Of a stretch of 64,000 nt of DNA, positions 22,216 through 51,231 are shown piece by piece. The first letter of the stretch is position 1. Each line of letters starts with the position of its first letter. The stretch is from the NCBI GenBank assembly GCA_958295905.1, contig OY282382.1, positions 4,894,910-4,958,909 of the forward strand, given 5' to 3'. The stretch is from an uncultured Vicinamibacterales bacterium. GTDB lineage: Bacteria > Acidobacteriota > Vicinamibacteria > Vicinamibacterales > UBA8438. Under the pieces are notes generated by a model that was given only the letters and a program-made list of their open reading frames with translations, was not told the DNA's origin and ran no database searches. Made by a program: the position numbers and the translations under genes.

Positions 22216-22388
22216 CAGGGGCATTCCACGCTGACTGTGCGCGACGGCTTGCCCCCGATTCGAGGGGTCGCCACCGTCTTGCCGACCGGCCGGCGCCGCG
22301 TGAGACCCACGATCCGCACGTCCGGAGCCCCAGGACCCGCCACGATTCTGCCTGCGCACGGCGGTGGCGGAGGGTGGGATGGTTCCTG
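22216..22388. mobile_element. MITE-like element, copy 1
   Basis: About 173 bp without coding capacity, one of four copies. Its ends are imperfect inverted repeats (CAGGGGCATTCCACGCT at the left, AGGGTGGGATGGTTCCTG at the right). The interior shares ACCGTCTTGCCGACCGGCCG and CACGTCCGGAGCCCCAGGA with copies at 42255, 46991 and 50035. No target duplication is recognisable around this copy. Confidence 0.8.
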
Positions 22389-42254: not shown

Positions 42255-42436
42255 CCCCCCCGCATCCCGCCGGAGCGCTGACTGCGCGTGACGGCCCGCC
42301 CCCGATTCGAGGGAGCGCCACCGTCTTGCCGACCGGCCGGTGCCGCGTGAGACCCACGATTCCGCACGTCCGGAGCCCCAGGACCCGCCACGATTCTGCC
42401 TGTGCACGGCTATGACGGAGCGTGGGATGATCCTGC
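42255..42436. mobile_element. MITE-like element, copy 2
   Basis: The interior closely follows copies at 22216 and 50035 (CACCGTCTTGCCGACCGGCC, CACGTCCGGAGCCCCAGGAC). The right end AGCGTGGGATGATCCTG is kept; the left inverted repeat is badly diverged, so this copy is probably immobile. It lies between the toxin-antitoxin pair and the PQQ dehydrogenase gene. Confidence 0.75.
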
Positions 42437-44966: not shown

Positions 44967-46581
44967 ATGAAACGGCTACACACTCATGTTTCCGATTTCC
45001 GGCGAAGTGCAACCAGTAAATTGCACCGGATTGTCGCTGTTGCGGTCTTGCTTGGCATAGCGGCAGTTTCCCTACTGGCTTGCAGCAGCGCAGAGCCGGT
45101 CGAAAGGTCAACACCCTCTCCAACAGCGGTGCCGGTTGTTGCCCCGGCACCCACCGCTACGCCGGTTCCTGACCCTACCGCTACGCCGGCCACTACACCT
45201 ACTTCGGCACCGGCTCCTACACCTACCGCCACCCCGACGCCGGCCGCCAGGACTGTCGGGTTGTTCCTGAACGAGCCGGAGGCATTTGAGGGCTATACTT
45301 TATTCAATACCCTCCGCACCAATACGATTTACCTGATTGATAATCAGGGGCGGGAGGTGCACCGGTGGGAGTTGGGGGTCCGAACCCAGTTAGCCAGATT
45401 GCTGGAGAATGGCAATCTGCTGACTTTAGCCAATCAAGGCCAGGGCCGCTACCCGAGTGTGCGGGAAGTTGACCGGAACGGAGATATCCTTTCGGACTGT
45501 ACTCAGGGGAGTCCGCATCATGACTTCCTTAAAATGCCCAACGGGAATGTGCTGCTGCTGTCCCGGCAACGTAAAACGCCGGAGGAGGTCATCGCCGCCG
45601 GCGCCAACCCGGAGTTTATCGGCCCTGATGGCTTGGTGGCACCGCATATTGTGGAAGCGCGAATTACCGGGCCGGCAAGCTGCGAAATTGTTTGGGAATG
45701 GTCGGCGTGGGATCATCTGATTCAGGACTTTGACTCCAGCAAGGCCAATTACGGGGAGGTGGCCGAGCATCCGGAGCTGATTGACCTTAACTTCCACCTT
45801 TCCGAGACAACCAATTATTCAGACCCTTCGGACTGGATACACAGCAACGGAATCGACTATAACCCGGAATTGGACCAGATTGTGCTGTCGCCTAGTAATT
45901 TCAGCGAAGTGTGGATTATCGACCACAGCACCACCAGAACCGAGGCGGCCGGCTCCGGCGGCGGAAATAGCGGCAAGGGGGGCGACTTGCTGTACCGCTG
46001 GGGCAACCCCCGCGCCTATCGGGCCGGAACGCTCGCTGACCACCAACTTTTCTCGTCGCATAATCCGCAATGGATTCCCCCCGGCCATCCCGGCACCGGA
46101 AACATCCTCATTTTCAACAATGGCGACAAGTCAACGGCTCTCCCCCGCACTTACTCGTCGGTAGATGAGATCGTTCCGCCGGTGGACGGAGCCAATTACC
46201 GGCTGAATCCCGGCCTAGCTTATGCGCCGGCAGAACCGGTATGGACTTATACCGCCCCGACGCCCGGCGACTTTTACGCCCATAATATCTCAGGGGCGCA
46301 ACGGCTGCCCAACGGAAACACGCTGATTTGCGATGGGGTACACGGCACGCTTTTCGAGGTAACGCCGACCGGCAAAAACGGTTTGGAAGTACGTCAACCC
46401 GACGACCAGCAGCGGCCCTTTGCGGCAAGGCAAGCCGGTGCCGACGGAACAACTGAGAAGTGGTAGCGTAGTACCGGCTAATCGGGTGTACCGCGCTTAC
46501 CGGTATGCGCCAGACTACCCGGGTCTGCAAGGGATGGACTTGACTCCGGGGGAGCCAATCGAACTTTACGACACCCCTTAG
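44967..46581 (+). pseudogene. Arylsulfotransferase-like lipoprotein, frameshifted near the end
   Basis: Lipoprotein with lipobox in VLLGIAAVSLLAC, a long threonine-proline linker (TPTSAPAPTPTATPTPAA) and an arylsulfotransferase (ASST) propeller: TLFNTLRTNTIYLIDNQGR, QGSPHHDFLKMPNGNVLLL, DWIHSNGIDYNPELDQIVL, SSHNPQWIPPGHPGTGNILI, HNISGAQRLPNGNTLICDG. The intact frame stops at 46466 with unrelated residues; shifting one base at the AAAAA run near 46375 restores TGKTVWKYVNPTTSSGPLRQ, YRAYRYAPDYPGLQGMDLT and a TAG at 46581. AT-richer codons and the linker style resemble Chloroflexota, so transfer is likely. A start at 44955 is also possible. Confidence 0.75.
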
Positions 46582-46702
46582 CCTGGTTAATGGCTGTTGG
46601 CCGGCGCATCGCCTCTTCGATGATCCGCCAGTCGCCGCCGAGGCCGGCGTGCTCGGCGCGGAAGCGCTCGAGAAGGTCGCGTGGCGCGTCGCACACAAAA
46701 CG

Positions 46703-46990
46703 GGGCGCCAACGTCCCCGACGAGGACCGGCGGGGCGGCTCGGCTTGGAACTCGCCCAGCTTCGACCCCGGGCTGAACCTCATCTACACCGGCGTCGGGG
46801 TGCCGATTCCGTGGGGCTCGGTGCAGCGGGGCACCGGTGACGGCGACATCCTGTACACCAACTCGACCCTCGCCCTCGACGCCGACACCGGCGAGATCGT
46901 CTGGTACTTCCAGCACATCCCAACGACGAGTGGGACCTCGACCATCCGTACGCGCGGCTCGTCGTCGAAACCGAGGTCTCGCCCGGCGCC
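46703..46990 (+). pseudogene. PQQ dehydrogenase internal fragment
   Basis: Reads GANVPDEDRRGGSAWNSPSF, then DPGLNLIYTGVGVPIPWGSV, YTNSTLALDADTGEIVWYFQ and HIP, the middle of a quinoprotein alcohol dehydrogenase. At about 46922 one base is missing; the next frame continues NDEWDLDHPYARLVVETEVS. It lacks start and end, and MITE copy 3 begins where it breaks off. It is not part of the intact quinoprotein at 42552, which has different sequence here. Confidence 0.75.
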
Positions 46991-47125
46991 GTCGAGTCGA
47001 GGGATTGCCACCGTCTTGCCGACCGGCCGGCACCGCGGGGACCCACGATTCCGCACGTCCGGAGCCCCAGGATCCGCCGCGATTCCGCCTGCGCACGGCG
47101 GTGGCGGAGCGTGGGATGGTCCTGG
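46991..47125. mobile_element. MITE-like element, copy 3 (5'-truncated)
   Basis: Shares the interior (CACCGTCTTGCCGACCGGCC, CACGTCCGGAGCCCCAGGAT) and the right end AGCGTGGGATGGTCCTG with the other copies. The left inverted repeat is missing; the homology begins right after the PQQ fragment. The following 47126-47364 shows no gene. Confidence 0.7.
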
Positions 47126-47364
47126 CGTCCGGCCCCAAGGGGTTGTTCCGCCCCGCCGCGTTGCTCCGCGGCCGGTCTGCCCGATGCCGCCCGCCACGCC
47201 TTACGTCGTACGGCGCCCGGCGGCCGGCTTGCGCCCTCCCCGGCCTCGGCGCAATTCAGGTTCCGCCGCGGGTTGCCGACGCCTTCTCGTTCGCCCGGTT
47301 CAAGGCTGGAGCGGCGGTCTTGGTCCCGGCTGCGCGCCGCCGCCGATGCGCCGATCGGCGCGGG

Positions 47365-47392
47365 TTGCATTCGGCGGCCGTTCGGCTACACT
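47365..47392 (+). promoter_or_regulatory. Candidate promoter of the FMN oxidase gene
   Basis: TTGCAT (47365-47370) and TACACT (47387-47392) are 16 bp apart, about 70 bp before the ATG at 47463. Prediction from sequence only. Confidence 0.4.
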
Positions 47393-47462
47393 TTGCGGAC
47401 CGACGGCCGGCGGCTGCGCGCCGATTCGACGCCGCGTCGCGGGCCTGCGAGGAGAACCGACG

Positions 47463-48893
47463 ATGACTGCACGAAGACCGGATACGAGTTTCCCCGACCG
47501 CGCGGCGAGCCGGCGCGAGTTCTTCAAGCTGCTGGCCGCGAGCCCGTTGCTGGGTGCGGCCGCGTCGGGCCTGCCCACGAGCTGGCAGCGGGCGCTCGCG
47601 CACGAGGCGGAACACCGCGCAAGGCCGGGCTCCGCGGCGCCCCACTGCCCCGAGTGCGGAGCGGACATTCTGCCGTCGTTGACGCAGCCTCGTTTCAACG
47701 CCCTTCAAGACCCGGCGCTGCCTCCCCAGAACGCCCTGGAGGATCAGTTGACGGGGCAGGTCATCGAGTCGCAGGACGACGCGGTCAACGTCTGGGACTT
47801 CGAGCGCGCGGCGCATGCGAACAATCTCGCCCAGCACTGGGACTACCTGCACATGGGGGTCGACGACTACGAGACGAGGAAGGCGAACCGGGAGGGGTTC
47901 CAGCGCCTGATGCTTCGCCCCCGTCGGCTCGGCGGCGAGGCGATGACCGAGCTCGACACGTCGGTCGAGCTCTTCGGCCGCCGATGGGACTCGCCCCTGT
48001 TCCTGTGTCCCGTCGCGAGCCTCGAGGCCTATCACACGCAGGGCGAGAGCGGCGCGGCCCGGGCCGCCCGGGCGAGGGGCGTCCTGCAGATGCAGTCGCA
48101 CCAGAGCTCGCAGTCCTACGCCGAGATCGCCGAGGCCCGCGGCGAGCCGCACTGGTTCCAGATCTACACGACGCCCGACTGGAACGTGAACCAGCGGGTC
48201 ATCGACCGCGTCGCCGGCGCGGGCTGCCCCGCCCTGGTGTGGACCATCGACCTCCTGGGCGGCAGCAACCGCGAACTGCAGCGGCGCACGCTGGCCGGCG
48301 AGGGCTACGAGTCGGTGCTCTGCCAGAACTGCCACCAGCACCAGCCGGGCTACCTGCGGCCGATGCGGGCGGGGCTGGAAGGGCCGGAGGGTCCCCGCCA
48401 CCCCTACACCTGGGACTACGTCAAGCGTCTCAAGGACGCCAGCGGCATGCAGCTCATCCTGAAGGGCATCATGACCGCCGAAGGCGCCGAGCAGGCGATA
48501 GAGCACGGCGCGGACGGCATCTTCGTGTCGAACCACGGCGGCCGGGCGGTGAACAGCATGTGGTCGTCGATCGACTCGCTGCCCGAGGTCGTCGCCGCCG
48601 TCCGGGGCCGGGTGCCGGTGTTCATCGACAGCGGCGTCCGCCGCGGCACCGACATCTTCAAGGCGCTGGCCCTCGGCGCCGACGCGGTGGGCATCGGACG
48701 CCCCTACGTGTGGGGGCTCGGCGCGTTCGGAGAGGACGGCGTCGCCAAAGTCATCGATCTGCTGCTCGCCGAGCTGCGGATCGCCATGCGGCAGACCCGG
48801 ACCACCTCCGTCGAGCAAATCACGTCCCGCTTCGTCATGGAGGGGAAGAACCCCATCATGATGCGCGACAACCGGTTCGGCTTCGGGCTGTAG
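47463..48893 (+). CDS. FMN-dependent alpha-hydroxy acid oxidase/dehydrogenase, exported
   Basis: Flavoprotein of 476 residues that would oxidise an L-2-hydroxy acid such as lactate or glycolate. The N-terminus SRREFFKLLAASPLLGAAAS is a Tat-type signal, unusual since most members are cytoplasmic. FMN-binding barrel: LFLCPVASLEAYHTQGESGA, QMQSHQSSQSYAEIAEARG, LVWTIDLLGGSNRELQ, LILKGIMTAEGAEQAIEHGA, then the active-site SNHGGRAVNSMWSSIDSLPE near residue 356 with catalytic histidine and arginine, and FIDSGVRRGTDIFKALALGA. Several cysteines near the N-terminus (CPEC) and centre (CQNCHQHQ) are extra to the family and could bind metal. Confidence 0.85.
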   Translation: MTARRPDTSFPDRAASRREFFKLLAASPLLGAAASGLPTSWQRALAHEAEHRARPGSAAPHCPECGADILPSLTQPRFNALQDPALPPQNALEDQLTGQVIESQDDAVNVWDFERAAHANNLAQHWDYLHMGVDDYETRKANREGFQRLMLRPRRLGGEAMTELDTSVELFGRRWDSPLFLCPVASLEAYHTQGESGAARAARARGVLQMQSHQSSQSYAEIAEARGEPHWFQIYTTPDWNVNQRVIDRVAGAGCPALVWTIDLLGGSNRELQRRTLAGEGYESVLCQNCHQHQPGYLRPMRAGLEGPEGPRHPYTWDYVKRLKDASGMQLILKGIMTAEGAEQAIEHGADGIFVSNHGGRAVNSMWSSIDSLPEVVAAVRGRVPVFIDSGVRRGTDIFKALALGADAVGIGRPYVWGLGAFGEDGVAKVIDLLLAELRIAMRQTRTTSVEQITSRFVMEGKNPIMMRDNRFGFGL

Positions 48894-49002
48894 CAGACTG
48901 TCGCAGAGCTGACTTTCCTGTCCGGCCGGCGACTCGTCGCCTCGATTGTCGGGCGCATGACCGGTGGCATGGACAACTCTCTTCAAGATGGTCCACTGGT
49001 TA

Positions 49003-49057
49003 GCCTGCGGGGTCCCGCTCCGCCACCGCCGCGGCGCGGAAGCGGGACCCCGCAGGC
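49003..49057. other. Long perfect hairpin
   Basis: GCCTGCGGGGTCCCGCT (49003-49019) pairs without mismatch to AGCGGGACCCCGCAGGC (49041-49057) around a 21-base loop. No T-run follows, so it is not a classic terminator. It could be the remnant of an element end or a regulatory RNA structure between the FMN oxidase and yceI-like genes. Confidence 0.7.
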
Positions 49058-49142
49058 CCCACTCCGCCACCGCGGGGGGACGCATGCGCGCGCCCGGTGC
49101 GGGCGGAGTCGCGCTCTGACTCGGAACTCGGAGGATCTCAGG

Positions 49143-49721
49143 ATGCTGGTCGCCTCTGGAACAAGTCTCTCGCTCCGTTTCGTGATCGCCGCCGCCGTCG
49201 GTTTCGCGCTGCTGGCCGGGTCCCCGGCGGCGGCGCAACCATCCGCCGTCGAGTTCACCGTGTCCGGAACGTCGACAATCCGGGGATGGACCTGCTCGGT
49301 GCAGGGGACGGCCGAGGTGACGCCCGGTTCGTCCACCCCGGCGCCCGGTTTCGCCACCGGGGTCCAGTCGGCGACGCTCGTCGTACCAGTGGGCAACTTC
49401 GAGTGCCCCGACGAAACGATGACCGAGCACCTCCTCGAGGCGATGAAGCCGGCCGAGTTCGCCGAGATCATCTTCCGGCTCGAGAGCTACGAGGCATCCC
49501 CCCAGGGCGCGGAAGCTACCGGCGCGCTCACCATCCAGGACGTCACCCGGGCGGTGAGCTTCCCGATCTCGCTGACTCCAGCCGGGACCGGTGTCAAGAT
49601 CGCGGGAGACGTCCGTCTCGACATGACGGCCTACGGCGTCGAGCCTCCCACCGTCATGCTCGGTCTTCTGCGGGTGCGGCCGCAGATCCGCATCGAGTTC
49701 GAAGGGCTGGTCGTCCCGTAG
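49143..49721 (+). CDS. YceI-like secreted lipid-binding protein
   Basis: Exported protein of 192 residues with a signal peptide (RFVIAAAVGFALLAGSPAAA). The mature part has the YceI-like barrel pattern: VEFTVSGTSTIRGWTCSVQG, ATLVVPVGNFECPDETMTEH, LLEAMKPAEFAEIIFRLESY, GALTIQDVTRAVSFPISLTP and a final RPQIRIEFEGLVV. YceI proteins bind isoprenoid chains in the periplasm. Two cysteines (WTC and FEC) may form a disulfide. ATG 49143, preceded by GGAGG. Confidence 0.8.
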   Translation: MLVASGTSLSLRFVIAAAVGFALLAGSPAAAQPSAVEFTVSGTSTIRGWTCSVQGTAEVTPGSSTPAPGFATGVQSATLVVPVGNFECPDETMTEHLLEAMKPAEFAEIIFRLESYEASPQGAEATGALTIQDVTRAVSFPISLTPAGTGVKIAGDVRLDMTAYGVEPPTVMLGLLRVRPQIRIEFEGLVVP

Positions 49722-50034
49722 GAGCCCGCCGCGTCACCGCTCCGACAGGCCCGAGCCCCCCTGCTCGGACGGCCTCCCAAACTCGCCGGACAACCGACCC
49801 GAAGCGCGCGGCGCCCGACTTCGGCCGCCCGCGCCTCGGTGGTTTCCGGGCCGTTGCCGCTCGACGGCCCGCCAAGTCTCGCCGGCAGCTCCGCAGCAGC
49901 GGCGGCGCGTTCCTCCGGCGCCGGCATCAGAGCTTCGTCAAGAAGTTCCCGCGCTTTCCTGTTCAATGAAGCGCCCCGGAACTTCCGCTGTTTCGACGTC
50001 GCCGGGCCAGTACCGGCGACGTCCACCGTCAACG
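49722..50034. other. Gap before MITE copy 4
   Basis: No gene recognised; the minus strand is open but has no protein-like pattern. Its end carries CCGTCAACG (50026-50034), the left copy of a 9-bp duplication flanking the MITE. Confidence 0.4.
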
Positions 50035-50193
50035 CAGGGACATCCCACGCTGACGGCGCGTGACGGCCCCCCCGATTCGAGGTTGCCGACCGGCCGGCGC
50101 CGCGTTGAGACCCACGATTCCGCCCGTCCGGAGCCCCGGGACCCGCCACGATGCCGCCTGCGCACGGCGGTGGCGGAGCGTGGGATGGTCCTG
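50035..50193. mobile_element. MITE-like element, copy 4, with 9-bp target duplication
   Basis: A 159-bp non-coding element. Left end CAGGGACATCCCACGCT and right end, read on the other strand, CAGGACCATCCCACGCT differ at two of 17 positions. The nine bases CCGTCAACG occur immediately outside both ends (50026-50034 and 50194-50202), as expected for a target-site duplication. The CAGG ends and 9-bp duplication are compatible with ISAs1-type transposases, which is inference. Best-preserved of four copies. Confidence 0.88.
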
Positions 50194-50214
50194 CCGTCAA
50201 CGCCGGCCACGCGG

Positions 50215-51231
50215 TCAGCTCGCGCCAATCCAGTACAGGCAGCCGGGGCCGGCGCCGGCGCCCATCGGTATCTCGAGGGTGACCTCGAGCGTCTCCAGGT
50301 CGACGACCGAGACGCGATCCGCGGCTCTCAGCCCGAGAAAGGCGCGCCGGCCCTCGGGCCCCACCAGGACCGCGCCGTCGCCGGTGTCGGCCGAGCCCAC
50401 CGTCACGCGCTCGATCACGCTGCGCGTGGCCGCGTCCATCACCACCAGGGACGCCGCCTCGCCGTCGATGATCAACACGCGGCCGTCGGGCGTGAACTTC
50501 AGCCGATTCGCGTCCCGCATGCCGAGGTCGAGGGTCTCCACGACCCGGCGGCTCTCGACGTCGATGATCGACACGCCGCCGTCGCCGCGGGTCGCCGTCC
50601 ACAGCTCGCGGCCGTCCGGCGACAGGTCGATGCCCTCGGGCCTCTCTCCCGGCACGGGAATATCGGTGATCCGCGCCCGCGCGGGCCCCTCCATGACGTT
50701 CTCGACCATCGTGACCGAGTTGGAGCCGGTGTTCGGCATGAACATCGCGCCCCGCCCCCGATCGAGCACCAGCATGTGGGTGCCGTCCTCGCCGATCCCG
50801 AGCGTCCAGTCGATCGCGTCCGCCGACGGATCGTAGCGCCCGATCGACTTGTAGCCCTCGATGGTGAAGTACACCTTGCCGCCAGCGAACAGCACGTCGT
50901 GCGTCTGGCTGCCGGGGCCGGGGTCGACCCGGCGGATCTCCTCCTGCGCGGCGAGATCGATGACCGAGATCCCGTCCACCATGCTCGCCACGAACGCCAG
51001 CCGGCCGTCGGCGGACGCGGTCACCTCGTGGGGGTCCCGGCCGGTCGGCACGCGCCCCAGCACGTTCCCGCCCGCCGGATCGACGATCGCGAGGGCGCTC
51101 GCGTCCCTGAGCAGCACCAGAAGTCGTCCGGGCGGCGGCGTCTGGGCGGTCGCCACGCCGGCCAGGGCGACGAGCGCACCCAGCGAGAGCGGGACGAACC
51201 CGCAAAGCGAAGTCTTGACCCGTCGTGTCAT
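50215..51231 (-). CDS. Secreted YVTN-family beta-propeller
   Basis: Exported protein of 338 residues with a signal peptide (VPLSLGALVALAGVATAQTP). YVTN-type blades repeat through the chain: ALAIVDPAGGNVLGRVPTG, ADGRLAFVASMVDGISVIDL, AMFMPNTGSNSVTMVENVME, RPEGIDLSPDGRELWTATRG, GGVSIIDVESRRVVETLDLG, RAADRVSVVDLETLEVTLEI. Such propellers bind ligands or partner proteins at the surface; function unknown. Start ATG 51231. Its 3' end is 12 bp from the right target duplication of MITE copy 4. Confidence 0.8.
   Translation of the reverse strand: MTRRVKTSLCGFVPLSLGALVALAGVATAQTPPPGRLLVLLRDASALAIVDPAGGNVLGRVPTGRDPHEVTASADGRLAFVASMVDGISVIDLAAQEEIRRVDPGPGSQTHDVLFAGGKVYFTIEGYKSIGRYDPSADAIDWTLGIGEDGTHMLVLDRGRGAMFMPNTGSNSVTMVENVMEGPARARITDIPVPGERPEGIDLSPDGRELWTATRGDGGVSIIDVESRRVVETLDLGMRDANRLKFTPDGRVLIIDGEAASLVVMDAATRSVIERVTVGSADTGDGAVLVGPEGRRAFLGLRAADRVSVVDLETLEVTLEIPMGAGAGPGCLYWIGAS

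Follow-up and report, generated by a model that had tools for sequence, protein, structure and literature searches.

A high-copy MITE family in a Vicinamibacterales bacterium and its probable mobilization by a DruA-fused ISAs1-type transposase

A short non-coding unit from an uncultured Vicinamibacterales bacterium belongs to a large MITE family in this genome (the source genome; 6.30 Mb, three contigs). The unit lies in the window, which is the whole stretch of 64,000 nucleotides that was analyzed. Judged from sequence comparison, it is very likely that the family was moved by an ISAs1-type transposase fused to a DruA domain, which is now represented by relics in the source genome. The preliminary description, based on the window alone, proposed that the unit must be moved by an element elsewhere. 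The comparison supports this proposal by inference, the candidate being an ISAs1-type insertion sequence (IS) found as relics in the source genome and intact in G362, a genome of another family in the same phylum.

The MITE family and its target site duplications

The MITE copies in the window and the features of the unit are as follows.

22216..22388, + strand: full-length 173-bp copy with nearly intact ends and no visible duplication
42276..42435, + strand: copy in which 13 bp of the consensus are missing at the left (left terminus lost)
46987..47124, + strand: left-truncated copy, about 35-173 of the consensus, beside a truncated PQQ-dehydrogenase fragment
50026..50034: left target site duplication CCGTCAACG, 9 bp
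50035..50193, + strand: MITE unit of 159 bp, shortened from the 173-bp consensus by internal deletions
50035..50051, + strand: left terminal inverted repeat CAGGGACATCCCACGCT (consensus left end CAGGGGCATCCCACGCT; left end of the G362 IS CAGGGCCATCCCACGCT)
50177..50193, + strand: right terminal inverted repeat AGCGTGGGATGGTCCTG (right end of the G362 IS AGCGTGGGATAGTCCTG)
50194..50202: right target site duplication CCGTCAACG, 9 bp

The unit at 50035-50193 is thus a shortened family member. Its length of 159 bp, its 17-bp inverted ends with mismatches at 2 of the 17 bases, and the 9-bp duplication on both flanks are all as first described. Three further copies had been reported in the window, with decayed ends and in the same orientation as the unit. 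These copies are real, and their BLAST identities are 83% (22216-22388), 83% (42276-42435), and 92% (47016-47124). The ends are indeed decayed in the copy at 42276, which lacks the left terminus, and in the copy first placed at 46991, which is cut at the left, but those of the copy at 22216-22388 are nearly intact. The shared orientation holds within the window but not genome-wide. Left-end matches in the whole genome (228 with up to 3 mismatches; 0 for the reversed-pattern control) are divided into 122 forward and 106 reverse, and the common orientation in the window is therefore a matter of chance. At 46590-48893, the truncated PQQ-dehydrogenase fragment, the left-truncated MITE, and an FMN-dependent dehydrogenase are in one open frame, suggesting gene decay there.

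Copies were counted, with fragments merged, in 864 kb of the source genome, consisting of two contiguous 400-kb stretches and the window. This sample contains 59 copies (~68 per Mb), with 34 and 21 in the two stretches. Extrapolated from these unequal stretches, about 430 copies are expected per 6.3-Mb genome. Two first-look searches returned 405 and 458 candidates, the same order as this estimate. The 173-bp consensus was built from 42 copies, and the MITE-type end pattern is CAGGNNCATCCCACGCT. A unit of 159-173 bp has no room for a transposase. Among the variants are internal tandem duplications of 242-249 bp. Full-length copies are on average 4.6% diverged from the consensus and ~92% identical to each other.

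Exact 9-10-bp duplications flank 44 of 99 distinct full-length copies, compared with 0.09% of shuffled pairings. The set of 99 is not random, as it includes copies fetched for their resemblance to the window copy; for the 864-kb sample by itself, the count is 21 of 42 full-length copies. Divergence from the consensus is slightly lower in copies with duplications (4.2%) than in the others (4.9%), and the difference is not significant (p = 0.066). The preliminary description made its reading depend on whether flanks are repeated at other copies with intact ends. They are repeated as 9-10-bp duplications, and the duplicated sequence differs from site to site. The interpretation of the unit as a MITE is supported by the terminal repeats, the site duplications, the copy number, and the ends common to an IS.

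A repeat family that resembles the intergenic REP/ERIC type, or that spread through gene conversion, could also become very numerous. Where flanks were read, the copies adjoin genes and none is inside a gene, and the right 57 bp of the MITE folds alone into a hairpin (z -2.45); both features fit such repeats. In that case, the flank matches would be coincidental. This is extremely improbable, and it is already contradicted by the duplications, since they are exact and site-specific in 44% of full-length copies against the chance level given above. The ends also match those of a real IS with an equal duplication length, and there is no Rfam match in 46000-51000. The hairpin-forming part of the consensus (117-173) opens with CAGGACCCGCCACG, similar to the terminal repeat, which gives the appearance of a smaller element nested inside the MITE. 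No clear gene disruption was observed across joined flanks, where open frames were judged by eye, because recognizable genes start past the junction.

The family is present in only one of the 60 genomes searched, which represent the source genome, its two congeners, its family, and its order. In the two congeners and the 57 other relatives, the family was not found, and the remaining matches are 28-34 bp long, near chance. Neither the MITE nor the relic protein had matches among GTDB contigs, viral contigs, or plasmids. At the site corresponding to 50035 in the congeners, the unit is missing and the right-hand gene is kept (89% identity), starting 2 bp past the duplication. The left flank there is unrecognizable, so the site does not represent a clean empty site, and none was recovered. 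Apparent empty sites inside the source genome were rejected as artefacts of tandem pairs.

Relics and an intact relative of the putative driver

The search for the driver covered end patterns, PF13808, PF01609, and homologues of the G362 transposase. Patterns that demand the MITE end but exclude the MITE subterminal sequence led to a relic at C1:1594785. It consists of an end, CAGGGCCATCCCACGCTAG, followed by the start of a frameshifted ISAs1-type transposase. Read across the frameshift, it matches PF13808 at 35.7 bits (cut-off 32.3). The PF13808 search of the source genome gave no match, presumably because the relic is frameshifted.

The relic fragment was searched against 396 genomes of the phylum. 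In G362, 12 loci show about 76% amino acid identity to the relic, and most of them are intact 2146-bp elements that start with CAGGGCCATCCCACGCT and end with AGCGTGGGATAGTCCTG. Exact 9-10-bp duplications flank eight of the ten complete 2146-bp copies checked. The transposase has an N-terminal DruA domain (PF14236, 68.9 bits), followed by PF13808 (43.9 bits) and the ISAs1 DDE domain (NF033564, 149.6 bits; cut-off 70). DruA is known from the Druantia anti-phage defence system. The 19-bp end of the relic is identical to the end of the G362 IS, and the relic sequence that follows shares 79% identity with IS positions 744-1079. A second relic matches IS positions 641-703 and adjoins a MITE copy. 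When the whole G362 transposase was compared with the source genome, the two relics were found, and DruA domains, among them those of two IS4-type groups, gave weak matches. No intact homologue was found in this whole-protein search. With no intact homologue remaining, the MITEs look orphaned.

The MITE consensus and the G362 IS agree at 16 of 17 positions at the left end and 16 of 17 at the right end, where 84% identity is kept over 31 bp. The right end starts with CAGGA in both. Apart from the ends, nothing in the G362 IS corresponds to the interior of the MITE, so that an origin of the MITE by internal deletion of this IS is only a hypothesis.

Typical ISAs1 elements are about 1.2-1.5 kb long, and ISAs1-family duplications are 8-10 bp. 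The G362 element, at 2146 bp, is outside this size. Inverted repeats of the ISAs1 family are 14-22 bp long and start with CAGGG (PMC11946415), and the duplications are reported as 10 bp (PMC11946415, PMC6305408). The 17-bp MITE ends, with CAGGGGCATCCCACGCT as the consensus left end, fit this description, as does the duplication length of 9-10 bp, which is the same in the MITE and the IS. The partner transposase belongs to ISAs1 by family model (NF033564, PF13808). We call the G362 element ISAs1-type, not a typical ISAs1 element, because the ends, the duplication, and the transposase family fit, and the size and the DruA domain do not.

The source genome contains many intact transposases (71 matches to PF01609), and another of them could have driven the MITE. 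The candidates include two DruA-carrying Tn5/IS4-type groups (five and six loci), of which one, with a length of 2422 bp, seems to generate 9-bp duplications, and other abundant ISs. The ends of the two groups, CTAGCGCTGCCCTTGCCCC... and CTAGCATGGGGTCACAGTTGACA..., are however unrelated to the MITE ends. In the top 30 PF01609 loci and 20 stretches over other transposase loci, no IS bounded by MITE ends was found; the MITE-end matches at those loci are MITE copies and one relic. Among the matches listed for the MITE-skipping patterns, there are only the relic, damaged MITEs, a transposon inside a MITE, and weak matches. That the MITE is moved by another transposase still intact in the source genome is very unlikely on this evidence. 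The multi-copy DruA-carrying IS4/Tn5-type ISs, represented by L189:3671-6113 and L193:3608-6029, also have the DruA domain at the N-terminus.

Two other candidates were rejected as drivers. The lone end at 3320812 does not belong to an insertion sequence but is a 20-bp stub of a MITE. A 5151-bp repeat that holds a MITE pair is an ISKra4-type transposon in its own right, whose ends differ and whose duplications are 8 bp long. Its five copies (L083, L151, L073, L075, and L143; C1 near 40, 1273, 3455, 3486, and 5605 kb, outside the window) are 99.98-100% identical and encode an ISKra4-family transposase (299.6 bits), with larB and citrate synthase as passengers. One of the copies is inserted into another MITE.

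In the mechanism we propose, the 17-bp MITE ends would be recognized by an ISAs1-family DDE transposase with an added N-terminal DruA domain. Insertion at staggered cuts followed by gap repair would generate the 9-10-bp duplications. The family would have been amplified to about 430 copies in the source species, and the transposase source would later have decayed in the source genome. Owing to this decay, the MITEs can probably no longer move unless the element enters the genome again. Some copies may have been inserted next to, or duplicated beside, a resident copy, resulting in head-to-tail pairs with a single duplication-sized spacer common to both members.

Tandem pairs of MITE and IS copies

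Sixteen close neighbour pairs were observed in the DNA fetched. They are mostly head-to-tail with an 8-10-bp spacer, and the spacer is often the same as the outer duplications. One junction is unlike the other pairs: at L110:3979-3980 (C1:955978-955979), a full MITE directly adjoins a short MITE-like right end, with zero spacer.

Replication slippage between the flanking duplications of one insertion could produce such pairs with no need for end-adjacent insertion. The identity within several pairs is 97-99%, against about 92% for random copies, and slippage remains a good explanation of these near-identical pairs. Other pairs (84-95%), however, are no closer than random copies. A pair in G362 also argues against slippage. 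There, CCTGCAGCCG follows an older IS (about 1.7% diverged and interrupted), and then come a second IS and CCTGCAGCCG again. The second IS is identical to the reference copy, and the left flank of the older copy differs. Only the outer flank of the newer copy repeats the 10-bp spacer. This pair looks like the product of insertion immediately next to an end that was already present. That all tandem pairs arose by slippage is quite conceivable, if short of probable.

An unlikely extension of end-adjacent insertion is that the DruA-carrying ISAs1 transposase steers insertion to the 9-10 bp immediately beside an existing end, so that both the ISs and their MITEs form head-to-tail arrays with spacers of duplication size. 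If true, DruA would serve transposases as a module for recognizing ends or targets. It is present on two IS4-type transposases too.

Relation to known elements and significance

The present system resembles the ISAs1 family (ISArsp11 and ISAs1) in its CAGG(G) inverted ends (17 bp here) and 9-10-bp duplications, and the transposase of the putative mover likewise matches NF033564 and PF13808. It differs in that the MITE has no transposase and the putative mover is found only as relics in the source genome. Compared with ISArsp11 (1306 bp; PMC6305408), the putative mover is longer (2146 bp) and has the extra N-terminal DruA domain.

Correia in Neisseria, Chunjie in Geobacter, and QMITE2 in Coxiella are also short and non-coding, with inverted ends, target duplications, and many truncated copies (PMC10969869). 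In contrast to them, the present family has different ends and probably a different mover, an estimated copy number of about 430, a distribution limited to one of 60 genomes, and recurrent head-to-tail pairs separated by a spacer the size of a duplication. ERIC elements are similarly intergenic and very numerous, with up to 711 copies in Photorhabdus (PMC10969869), whereas the present family shows clear 9-10-bp target duplications and an identified IS partner. The family is of a known kind; its unusual abundance, its restriction to one genome among those searched, the apparent loss of its driver, and the end-adjacent pairs are notable.

The family exemplifies a burst of MITE copies in a bacterium, to a few hundred in one species, with an apparently lost driver. 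Dead fragments of the putative driver remain in the source genome, and a living relative with matching ends is found in another family of the phylum. The claim that an IS mobilizes a MITE is usual but seldom tested, and it becomes directly testable here with a defined transposase. The data also add ends and duplications for an unusual DruA-fused branch of ISAs1.
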